From a virus: 24,372 nucleotides of DNA. Positions within the stretch are counted from its first letter, which is position 1. Each line of letters opens with the position of its first letter. The notes below the pieces were generated by a model. That model was not told where the DNA came from. It ran no database searches and was given only the letters and a program-made list of their open reading frames with translations. A program made the position numbers and the translations under genes. The stretch is from positions 1 to 24,372 of IMG/VR virus record IMGVR_UViG_3300050343_000092, one strand, 5' to 3'. This document shows, one piece after another, positions 15,802-24,372 of the stretch.

Positions 15802-16151
15802 TACTTGTTAAGATCCAATCTAAAATCTACACATTCTGGAGTACAATACCACCAATACTCTGACTTTAAACCTGCATCTAGGTATGGTTCATCAGTGTAA
15901 ATCATAGTCTTTTTAGGATAATAATAAAAACATTCAGTACATAGTTGTTGTTTTAAGTATTTTATTCTTAATTTGTGTATGTTTCTATCAAAATTTATTT
16001 TAAATTTATTATTCCCATAATCGTTTGGGTGCATTTTACTTGGATTTGTTTCAACATAATCTTTAAAATGATTATAGCTGTTACTTAATATTCTTTTATA
16101 CACCACAATAGCCAGAACATTCATCATCAAACAATCCATACTGTGGATCAT
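15798..16151 (-). CDS. Small putative zinc-binding protein
   Basis: The frame gives up to 117 residues, but the first ~19 lie inside the upstream PP-loop gene, and a later non-ATG start (for example GTG near residue 16) is more likely. The visible core is YNHFKDYVETNPSKMHPNDY, a basic middle, and QQLCTECFYYYPKKTM...YWWYCTPECVDF: CxxC paired with CxxxC, consistent with one zinc ribbon or treble-clef site. Last gene of the minus-strand set; its stop overlaps the convergent phosphoesterase gene by four bases. Function unknown. Confidence 0.5.
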   Translation of the reverse strand: MIHSMDCLMMNVLAIVVYKRILSNSYNHFKDYVETNPSKMHPNDYGNNKFKINFDRNIHKLRIKYLKQQLCTECFYYYPKKTMIYTDEPYLDAGLKSEYWWYCTPECVDFRLDLNKY

Positions 16152-16965
16152 CTTCTGCTATAAAATCTATATCAGATAGTGGCTCCATTTTCCTATGCAA
16201 AAATAATTCACCATCTAATTTACTAACAAACTGACTTTCTTTATTTGACCTAAGTTGTTTGTCAAAGTCTAATGCGTATTCAAATTCTTTTGGATGTTTT
16301 ACTTTGATCCTCTGCCATTCTTTATTGTCGTGATAAGGACAAATAATACAAGCTGATCTTGGTGGTTGTGGAAAACCTAATGTTTCAAAGTAATGCAAAC
16401 AATCGTGTCTTGATATGTTGTTCTCTATCAATGGATAACAATTTATAGCCCATTTATTAGGTGGTTGTTTTGCTCTCTGGATCTCATCAGAAGATATACC
16501 CATAACAACTTCAACAACTTTACCACGAAGATTTGTAACATCAAGTAACTCTCTTATTTTTTTATTTATTGGTTGTATTTTATACCTATCAGTACAAGTT
16601 CTTAAAGTAAGACCTTGTTTTCCATTAGAATTTTTAACAAAAACTGGTATTGAAGCAAAGAAACCAGATGGAGAAAGTATATCTTTTGTTATATCTCCTG
16701 TGTTCCTATCGTTGTTTACAATTATTATAGGAATTTTGTGTGAAACTTTTTCTTTTAGAAACTCAAACCATTCATAGACTTCTTTAGGTTCATTGCCAGT
16801 GTCAGCAAATATTGCTGCATCAACAGGTGCTATCTCACCATTGTATATTTTCATAAGTAATGTAGATGATTGCACACCTGCACCAAGTGATAGTATTCTT
16901 AGATCAGGTTTTCTTACTAAAGTATCTTCGTGTCCTAATCGCATCTCTTTTAGATATTTACTCAT
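16096..16965 (-). CDS. PP-loop ATP pyrophosphatase, PAPS reductase-like
   Basis: A 289-residue enzyme of the adenine-nucleotide alpha-hydrolase fold. The PP-loop is LSLGAGVQSST (residues 25-35). Further family motifs are FADTGNEPKEVYEW (53-66), LRTCTDRYKIQPI with C124, VVMGISSDEIQRAK, SACIICPYHDNKEW with C206 and C209, and a C-terminal DECSGYCGV with C283 and C287. This is a widespread phage family usually labelled PAPS reductase, though true sulfate reduction is doubtful. Nucleotide activation and thiolation or DNA/RNA modification chemistry are alternatives, and the cysteines could bind Fe-S or zinc. Its ATG overlaps the SET gene stop by four bases, so the two are coupled. Confidence 0.8.
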   Translation of the reverse strand: MSKYLKEMRLGHEDTLVRKPDLRILSLGAGVQSSTLLMKIYNGEIAPVDAAIFADTGNEPKEVYEWFEFLKEKVSHKIPIIIVNNDRNTGDITKDILSPSGFFASIPVFVKNSNGKQGLTLRTCTDRYKIQPINKKIRELLDVTNLRGKVVEVVMGISSDEIQRAKQPPNKWAINCYPLIENNISRHDCLHYFETLGFPQPPRSACIICPYHDNKEWQRIKVKHPKEFEYALDFDKQLRSNKESQFVSKLDGELFLHRKMEPLSDIDFIAEDDPQYGLFDDECSGYCGV

Positions 16966-21757: not shown

Positions 21758-22458
21758 TACTTCCCCTTATATAGTTTGTAACCTTTATGTTACTACATAC
21801 TTATTATATGTATAGTATTTCTTTTAATTTCTTTTATCAATCGGGTTACGATCTTGTTAGTTGGTAGAGGTTGGAGGGTTAGGGGATAATATTAATTCCT
21901 AGTGTCGCTCTCTCATTCCAAATCATACCACCCCCATTATTTGAAAAAAATATCCTATTGTTTTACAGAATGCATTCTTTCTAGGTTATTTTAGATTAAA
22001 GCCTATAAACATTAGCTAGCCTATAATATCCATTATGTTGCGTTAGCCCTTAGACCTTGTAAATAAGTGCATAATGCCAATATGACACGTGCCTAAGCGT
22101 AGCGTAACACACCACTCAATCCATGGCAACTGTTTAGTTAGAAGTGTTCACGATCTTGGTAGATTGTGTACATACAGTAGGAGAGGAATTGCAGTAATAA
22201 ACATCTTTTCTAATCTGTTTGAGGTGTACTTCACACTCTATACATTTCATACTGTTTATTCTACTTGTTTATCTTTTATTGTGGTTCTAACCCTGTGTCA
22301 CTCCCTCCCAAAAACCAGAATGAACTCAATTAAGTAACATTTAAATATGTGAAGTAATAGGCTTTTACCCTAGTTATGATGGTCTAGCTAATCCACTTTC
22401 CCTTTAGTGTTGATCCAACATATCTTTCCTAAGAGCTAGAGAAATGTTTTGTTTGTTG
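21758..22458. other. Gene-free region upstream of the early genes
   Basis: No convincing coding frame: short frames here lack ribosome sites. Contents seen: a minus-strand TATAAT-like stretch near 21800 (possible early promoter); direct GCCTATAA repeats (22001-22008 and 22019-22026); an inverted repeat CATTATG/CATAATG (22031-22037 with 22070-22076); and two ACGATCTTG elements (about 21849 and 22150). A TTAGTTGGTAGAGG stretch near 21858 resembles a tRNA D-arm, but no acceptor or T-arm fits. It may hold regulatory or replication elements; nothing certain is visible. Confidence 0.5.
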
Positions 22459-22487
22459 TTGTCATACTATCACACCATTACTAATAT
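22459..22487 (+). promoter_or_regulatory. Sigma-70-type promoter for the structured RNA
   Basis: TTGTCA (22459-22464), 17-base spacer, TAATAT (22482-22487). The predicted start, about seven bases on (22494), coincides with the first base of a hairpin, supporting a defined RNA 5' end. Confidence 0.55.
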
Positions 22488-22493
22488 GCAAGT

Positions 22494-22680
22494 ACCTGGA
22501 AAATCCAGGTGCAGCGTATGAGGATACGCTTCTATTTATAATAAGAAAGAAAAACTTTCATCTAAGTAAACAGTACTGTGGTGTACAGTGTAAGAGAGGA
22601 ATGTTTTTGTGGATTGTTATATTTTTCATAACAGTTTGGACAACTGTACGGAACAAGCCCCACCTAGGTGGGGTTTTGTT
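22494..22680 (+). ncRNA. Candidate structured non-coding RNA
   Basis: About 187 bases from predicted start to terminator, without an ORF. Hairpins in order: ACCTGG/CCAGGT (22494-22499, 22505-22510); AGCGTAT/ATACGCT (22513-22519, 22524-22530); ACTGT/ACAGT (22575-22579, 22585-22589); TGTTAT/ATAACA (22615-22620, 22628-22633); ACAGTT/AACTGT (22631-22636, 22642-22647, which shares three bases with the previous stem and so could alternate with it); terminator CCCCACCTAGGTGGGG. A promoter lies just upstream. No match to 6S, tmRNA or tRNA is evident. Function unknown; stem switching hints at a regulatory RNA. Confidence 0.55.
22658..22680 (+). terminator. Rho-independent terminator, plus strand
   Basis: The 16-bp perfect palindrome CCCCACCTAGGTGGGG (22658-22673; stem of six with a CTAG loop) is followed by TTTTGTTT (22674-22681). 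Good intrinsic terminator on the plus strand; it ends the candidate RNA. Confidence 0.8.
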
Positions 22681-22682
22681 TA

Positions 22683-22711
22683 TTGACTTAGTTTCTGATC
22701 TGGTATATAAT
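22683..22711 (+). promoter_or_regulatory. Strong sigma-70-type promoter, plus strand
   Basis: TTGACT (22683-22688), exactly 17 bases, TATAAT (22706-22711): the best promoter match in the window. It starts two bases after the plus-strand terminator and points toward the small basic proteins and terminase, though it would also make an antisense transcript through the 22793 gene. Confidence 0.75.
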
Positions 22712-22747
22712 GGAGTATCAAAAACACTTCCCTGTTTGTGATTAACC

Positions 22748-22771
22748 AAAAAACCCCTAGTTCTTCTAGGG
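22748..22771 (-). terminator. Rho-independent terminator, minus strand
   Basis: On the minus strand CCCTAG-AAGAA-CTAGGG (22771-22755), then G and TTTTTT (22753-22748). It lies about 20 bases after the stop of the minus-strand zinc-finger gene and probably ends its transcript. Confidence 0.75.
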
Positions 22772-22792
22772 TATGAAAATAAAAAATTTTTT

Positions 22793-22999
22793 TTAGCTCA
22801 GTGGATCTTGTAGGTCGGTAGGAGCATTTCTTCCTTTGATTCTAGGATACGATCTAGGTTTATGTTTATTACAGTATTTAAACTTATTGTACTTAGAAAT
22901 AACTGTGTCACATCCTTTGTGAACACAGACTCTTCCACTACTATATGAAGTAGAGGGTTTGCTATTAGGATATTTATTACCTTTTATGTAATCACTCAT
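22793..22999 (-). CDS. 68-residue zinc-finger protein
   Basis: Start chosen at ATG 22999 (longer in-frame upstream region overlaps the divergent genes and is unlikely). Product MSDYIKGNKYPNSKPSTSYS, GRVCVHKGCDTVISKYNKFK, YCNKHKPRSYPRIKGRNAPT. Cysteine/histidine pattern C-x4-C...C-x2-H (VCVHKGC, YCNKH) is the small phage zinc finger with the D-T-x-x-S-x-Y-N motif that I associate with actinobacteriophages. No ribosome site; TATACT (23014-23009) places the transcript start about three bases before the ATG, so the mRNA may be nearly leaderless. A terminator follows. Confidence 0.7.
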   Translation of the reverse strand: MSDYIKGNKYPNSKPSTSYSSGRVCVHKGCDTVISKYNKFKYCNKHKPRSYPRIKGRNAPTDLQDPLS

Positions 23000-23493: not shown

Positions 23494-24372
23494 ATGGCTG
23501 AACGCAAACAATGTAGCAATCCTGGCTGCGAAAAAAAGTTTACTGCAAAACACGGAATGAGTAGGTACTGTAGTCAACTGTGTTCTAATAAAGCTAAGTG
23601 GAAACGAGCTAAAGAACGAGAGCGACTTAAAGCTATAGATAAACTTGATATAAACGAAACTACTCTTAATCGTGGTGAACACTATGAGAACTATGTAAAA
23701 AACTACGCACAGTTAGTTGAACAGAAAAAAATAACAAGAGCTGATGTTGCACGAATGATTAGTGTTGCAGATGATATTGTTAGTAAGATGCACAATGCGT
23801 ATCGCATAGATAAAGATAATGCAGATAAACGAGAAGAGTGGACAACACCACAAGAAGCAATTAAGTCACTACAAAAGTTTGAAGATTTTAGAGATAGGTA
23901 TTTCCAAACAGAAACTGGAGAGATATACGAAACAGCTGACTTTCACCAAAGATGGATTCAATCTATTTTAGATGCTATTGATACAGGTGGAGAGCAAATG
24001 ATTCTTAGCCCACCACGACACGGCAAGACTGACTTACTTACACATTTTGCTATATGGCAGATATGTAGAAATCCTAATGTAAGAATTATGTGGGTAGGTG
24101 GTAACGAAGAGATAGCTAAGAACGCAGTAGGTGCAGTAGTTGACCACTTAGAACATAATGAAAAACTTATAGAGGATTTCTGTGGACCAGGAAAAACATT
24201 TAAACCTAAGAATAGATCAGGTAAATCTTGGACATCAGGACAGTTTACAACAGCTACCAGAACTGTTACTGGAATTAAATCACCAACAATGGTTGCAGTA
24301 GGTAAGGGTGGAAAGATACTTTCTCGTGACTGTGACTTGATTATTGCTGATGACATTGAGGATCACGGAACT
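23494..24372 (+). CDS. terL: Terminase large subunit, 3' end outside the window
   Basis: The frame stays open for 293 codons to the window edge. Residues 1-40 form a zinc finger, C7, C12, C26 and C30 (CSNPGC...YCSQLC). About 120 helical residues follow, then the packaging ATPase: PPRHGKT Walker A at 173-179, FTTATRTVTG, and CDLIIADDIED with Walker B Asp/Asp-Ile-Glu at 280-290. The motor drives DNA into the head; the nuclease domain must lie beyond the edge. The N-terminal finger and helical part could replace or fuse small-terminase functions, as no separate small subunit is seen nearby. Gene starts three bases after the upstream stop. Confidence 0.9.
   Translation, partial: MAERKQCSNPGCEKKFTAKHGMSRYCSQLCSNKAKWKRAKERERLKAIDKLDINETTLNRGEHYENYVKNYAQLVEQKKITRADVARMISVADDIVSKMHNAYRIDKDNADKREEWTTPQEAIKSLQKFEDFRDRYFQTETGEIYETADFHQRWIQSILDAIDTGGEQMILSPPRHGKTDLLTHFAIWQICRNPNVRIMWVGGNEEIAKNAVGAVVDHLEHNEKLIEDFCGPGKTFKPKNRSGKSWTSGQFTTATRTVTGIKSPTMVAVGKGGKILSRDCDLIIADDIEDHGT

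Follow-up and report, generated by a model that had tools for sequence, protein, structure and literature searches.

Comparative evidence for a structured noncoding RNA, probably an independent gene, at the early/late gene boundary of uncultured marine tailed phages

The DNA analysed here, called the window below, is the whole of a 24,372 bp IMG/VR virus record. Its late genes (terminase, head and tail, recognised by PHROG matches) lie on the + strand. Its early genes, which are small, lie on the − strand, and the two sets are separated by about 1.2 kb without a recognisable gene; an earlier note on this DNA had likewise described a gene-free stretch there. The note had placed in this stretch a new structured phage RNA with a promoter and terminator of its own. 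The features that we recognise there and at the start of the late genes are as follows:

22459–22487, + strand: sigma70-like promoter of the RNA, TTGTCA (22459–22464), 17 nt, TAATAT (22482–22487)
22493–22681, + strand: noncoding RNA of about 190 nt, its predicted start placed from the distance to the −10 and the edge of P1; match to covariance model R1 at 22490–22656, 155 bits
22492–22512, + strand: P1 hairpin at the 5' end, GUACCUGGA AAA UCCAGGUGC; compensatory changes CG/UA, GC/AU and AU/UA
22513–22530, + strand: P2 hairpin with purine tetraloop GAGG; 20 compensatory cells
22537–22621, + strand: P3 long-range helix, 22537–22544 with 22614–22621; compensatory changes
22548–22563 with about 22595–22610, + strand: inner extension of P3; six pairs with two-sided changes jointly with outer P3
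22573–22586, + strand: P3a inner hairpin, its loop UGUGGUG conserved in clade A; AU/GC and GC/UA exchanges, 99% paired
22631–22650, + strand: P4 hairpin ACAGUU-UGGAC-AACUGU followed by ACG; invariant core
22655–22683, + strand: intrinsic terminator CCCCACCUAGGUGGGG-UUUUGUUU; a terminator is present in 125/126 loci
22683–22711, + strand: separate late-gene promoter TTGACT, 17 nt, TATAAT; 11/12 match
23494–24372, + strand: start of the terminase large subunit gene (terL), PHROG 38, E 9e-31; constant downstream neighbour

A terminase search and pattern scans of viral contigs yielded more than 200 related loci, 126 of them distinct and carrying the core motif CAGT-(6–10 nt with TGGAC)-ACTGTACG; the record set is one of uncultured viruses, mostly fragments. 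The terminator follows directly after the core in all but one of the 126, and in 113 terL follows further downstream on the same strand; these are all the loci with enough DNA, the coordinates of the other 13 leaving only about 0.1–1.25 kb of downstream DNA, too short for the spacing in their clade. The covariance model R1, built only from the close homologues (clade A), finds copies in the divergent clade B with E-values down to 5e-15. Of 15 long records, each has exactly one copy by this model, and multiple copies per phage were rejected on this count. No DNA match to the region was found among the cultured phages in the collection, where a 70-nt query of the core matched only terminator-like pieces of 24–30 nt; bacterial genomes gave four pattern matches, coding-like, apparently due to chance and with no T-run terminator after them, and none by R1. 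An actinobacterial host, considered through WhiB genes, was also rejected, none being present in 14 records.

The + strand of the window RNA folds at −64.5 kcal/mol (z −5.7), as well as which none of 200 shuffles did. According to the earlier note, its proposal would be refuted if related phages showed no conserved pairing; they do show it. Among the 33 clade A sequences of alignment A1, a 42-pair structure consisting of P1, P2, P3 with its extension, P3a and P4 has 95.6% of its cells paired, and 13 pairs change on both sides. There are 89 compensatory cells compared with 1–25 in slid controls (these were counted without trees, and 89 is not a number of independent events), and the covariation score, which does not exceed 0.065 in slid controls, is 0.227, reached by 0 of 500 shuffles. 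The P1 stem is rewritten in clade B, with up to four pair types per pair, and column-shuffled alifold z scores are −7.8 for clade A and −5.6 for clade B. The note's further idea that two of the stems could switch does not survive the comparison: the GTACAGT/ACTGTAC complementarity is specific to the window, and relatives have GTACTTG, GTAACAG or GTACTGG in its place. A riboswitch-like switch involving the terminator was rejected as well, since by eye the terminator stems vary freely and have no covarying upstream partner.

The sole listed ORF overlapping the RNA is a TTG-initiated antisense frame of 63 amino acids, and the homologous bodies have no consistently open frame, their lengths being spread evenly modulo 3; a coding region was rejected on these grounds. 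This agrees with the note, which had seen no ORF in the roughly 190 bases, and no ORF is conserved in relatives. No match to tRNA, tmRNA or 6S shape had been evident in the note either; ARAGORN finds no tRNA or tmRNA gene in the window, Rfam 15 gives no match in the window at gathering scores, all matches at E ≤ 10 over 22250–22800 are far below threshold, and eight related loci have no Rfam match. Covariation, the lack of a conserved ORF and the lack of an Rfam match together support the note's proposal that this phage RNA is new, structured and provided with its own promoter and terminator. Open-literature searches found no description of it. Fremin and colleagues reportedly described, in 2023, more than ten thousand phage RNA candidates from viral contigs, and the present element may already be among the unnamed motifs of their list. 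Set against Rfam and against the literature apart from that list, it appears to be a new RNA family of uncultured marine viruses of bacteria. Marine and cyanophage motifs are among those listed in a survey, published in 2010, of RNAs from bacteria and metagenomes, the text of which does not contain the word terminase (PMC2864571).

The TTGTCA-17-TAATAT promoter of the note is present, though a 9/12 match is by itself no more than chance would give, 14 such sites being found where 18.9 are expected. It is credible because a −10 hexamer ends 3–9 nt ahead of P1 in 99 of 99 relatives with enough DNA, as against 37% with shuffled upstream DNA; the −10 matches at ≥5/6 positions in 61 of these 99 (shuffled, 12%). 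The first hairpin does begin at the predicted start point, about 22493–22495. Promoters differ among relatives, the window clade having TTGTCA-17-TATAAT with a near-invariant TTGTCATA.TATCACA and TATAAT/TAATAT, and others having no good −35. The intrinsic terminator seen in the note is real at 22655–22676, and terminator stems have many unrelated sequences across the 126 loci. Promoter and terminator are kept as functions in the related loci while their sequences change; by this comparison a promoter and an intrinsic terminator of its own are conserved, as they should be for an independent sRNA gene. The comparison of relatives establishes a structured noncoding RNA whose predicted signals for starting and stopping are conserved.

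The explanation that we favour, at a probability of roughly 0.55, is that a group of uncultured marine tailed phages carries, at the early/late boundary, a noncoding RNA gene that is independent and present in single copy, and that its product probably acts in trans via P4. That the gene is independent is argued from the covariation, the single copy, the exchangeable terminators, a separate late promoter, relocation of the RNA in one record (L001) and genes inserted beside it. A second promoter lies right after the RNA terminator in 113 of the 126 loci (TTGAC-type in 56, extended −10 in 57). The terminase query region of L001 is identical to that of the window, with 96.5% identity downstream, and its RNA body has been relocated to a place that corresponds to the interval from about 22792 to about 22808 of the window, where another promoter lies upstream of it; the homologous block corresponds to window 22492–22683, its ends equal to the predicted start and terminator. 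In four loci (L030, L056, L057 and L059) about 860 bp is inserted between the RNA and the late promoter, and L078 has a smaller piece. As far as these comparisons go, the RNA body behaves as a cassette, whose promoter, terminator and neighbours can be exchanged while the body is kept.

The constant same-strand position just 5' of the late operon fits a cis-acting leader too, and this is the main rival, although we think it rather unlikely. Polymerase would halt at the terminator until an antiterminator permits transcription of the packaging and capsid genes, the antiterminator being a protein or else P4 itself as a nut/boxB-like site, in the manner of λ pR'-6S-tR' or HK022 put. The RNA is always on the same strand as terL and upstream of it, P4 keeps its place near the terminator in the short forms too and is preceded by a pyrimidine-rich UUUCAU tract, and the λ 6S leader is similar to the present RNA in length and, like it, a short terminated transcript (here a predicted one) from a promoter that heads a late operon. 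On the other hand, the late genes here have their own promoter 3' of the terminator, genes have been inserted between the two, and in L001 the cassette has moved relative to a neighbouring conserved element; the body, unlike that of 6S, is a cassette-like, covarying multi-hairpin structure, of which a leader has no obvious need for P1–P3.

P4 is the most constant part of the RNA. Its loop is 6–10 nt long and always contains UGGAC in the 126 loci; its stem, ACAGT/ACTGT, is invariant in the 33 clade A sequences, so its pairing is without covariation support there. The loop list for the 126 loci shows a sixth pair that is T-A in AGTT/AACT forms and A-T in AGTA/TACT forms. The variable loop length, the retention of UGGAC and the two forms of the sixth pair favour an RNA hairpin over a DNA operator of fixed spacing. 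A DNA element (operator or origin) whose palindromes merely resemble RNA hairpins is in our view highly improbable: palindromes do fold on either strand (the minus strand has z −4.8) and the adjacent upstream block is also highly conserved noncoding DNA, but the P4 half-sites vary in spacing, the long-range helix P3 shows compensatory changes, and the conserved body begins at the start defined by the −10 and ends at the terminator. Four loci (L051, L071, L075 and L080) keep only P4 and the terminator of the RNA, and L079 has neither at the site, where the RNA may be dispensable or may have moved elsewhere. P4 joined to the terminator is, on this comparison, the core of the RNA.

The loop also bears on whether the RNA is a decoy that, like RsmY or CsrB, sequesters a host translational regulator (CsrA/RsmA) through GGA motifs in its loops. 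RsmY, RsmZ and CsrB are likewise free-standing RNAs with a promoter, GGA-presenting hairpins and a terminator, the window RNA has six GGA compared with 2.4 in shuffles (p 0.004), P4 and P2 show GGA in or at their hairpin loops, and there is a weak resemblance to RsmY (E 0.062). Against this, the RsmY score is 17.2 bits where the gathering score is 57, much of that match is the terminator, and GGA averages 3.7 against 2.5 family-wide and is universal only in P4; we consider such a decoy very unlikely.

Under the favoured reading, that of an independent gene, host RNA polymerase would make a stable RNA, about 190 nt long here and less in some relatives, with the terminator forming its 3' end. 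The RNA would act in trans, the fixed stem and UGGAC loop of P4 being its working part, either recognised by a protein or paired with a target RNA, and P1–P3 may protect or scaffold P4. Action in trans via P4 is inferred because no other part is retained by every copy, the P4 loop does not change its motif and the unit stays intact when moved. UGUCCA sites in the window, inspected by eye and with low power, form no pattern at gene starts. Lying as it does where the packaging operon begins, the RNA may serve the switch to the late phase or its execution.

A part in packaging itself, with the RNA belonging to the terminase motor or procapsid as φ29 pRNA does, seems unlikely to us. Both are single-copy structured phage RNAs, the present one is always linked to terL, and a non-exhaustive search of the window proteins recognised no separate small terminase. 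Linkage to terL is, however, expected from shared synteny anyway, and the present RNA differs from φ29 pRNA in having no match in Rfam, which includes a phage pRNA family, in its hairpin order, in its intrinsic terminator end and in the existence of short forms without P1–P3, down to a minimal P4-only form. More tentatively, and with some doubt, we suggest that the invariant hairpin ACAGU...UGGAC...ACUGU ACG might work with the terminase or procapsid or be a dedicated late-phase regulator, that its mechanism might be new among phage RNAs, and that the family might be widespread.

Other phage-linked ornate RNAs such as GOLLD and ROOL share with it an origin in phages or marine metagenomes and are much larger, and manA, wcaG and PhotoRC-II are marine phage motifs that, unlike the present RNA, lie ahead of metabolic genes (PMC2864571, PMC12286853); none of these five matched in the Rfam scans of the window and related loci. 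Few structured RNAs are both well supported and conserved across divergent phage lineages, and the present one is tied to terL in a large uncultured group of marine phages. It is a compact, testable object of about 60–190 nt with an invariant 20-nt core, its covariance model can be used for metatranscriptome searches, and it is a possible handle on late-gene timing in small marine phages in which no RNA polymerase is recognised.

Several other features of the region were observed. A second highly conserved noncoding block, window 22284–22459, lies directly 5' of the RNA promoter, with about 85% identity among phages whose terminases are only 73% identical; it contains a hairpin AACATATCT/AGAAATGTT (22417–22425 with 22440–22448) in which some changes are compensatory (alifold z −3.0 on the + strand and −2.3 on the −), and is possibly an early-gene leader or another regulatory element. 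Just 3' of the late promoter, window 22713–22790 has a conserved element (ACTCATTTCTTATGAGT)..CTTCCCTGTTTGATTAACC..CCCTAG-hairpin-CTAGGG..AAAAAATTTTTTTT, which in L001 is upstream of the RNA and not downstream. Clade B loci (e.g. L123, L135 and L170) have just 5' of the RNA a run of about eight A and then about eight T, often with a G run next, ahead of the −10; the window has AAAAAATTTTTTTT at about 22784–22797. A further conserved noncoding stretch, GGTACTGGGTTTGC..CCGATTCCCAGCTTTCTGACTCCTGATGCCACCTTCACCTGTA, is present at 2680–2800 of L001 and upstream of P4 in L197, L212 and L232, in loci without the window's upstream block. The N-terminus of terL (window 23494–23620) has a zinc-finger-like extension, with a weak CGNR zinc-finger match (E 5e-4) below the Pfam cut-off. 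The insert of about 860 bp in L030, L056, L057 and L059 encodes a protein whose C-terminus by eye resembles the PAPS-reductase-like protein of window 16096–16965, and it apparently brings its own extended −10 promoter (also by eye).

Finally, about 16 loci (L068, L077, L108, L125, L158, L162, L186, L190, L204, L208, L215, L253–L255, L262 and L274) have an optional domain of about 55–95 nt between P3 and P4. It resembles no Rfam family and is self-contained and foldable, with the pattern GAGT..GTAGGTGCGAGGACC..AACAACTGCCTAC..ACTC and conserved GGTGYGAGGAC and AAACAACTGCC.
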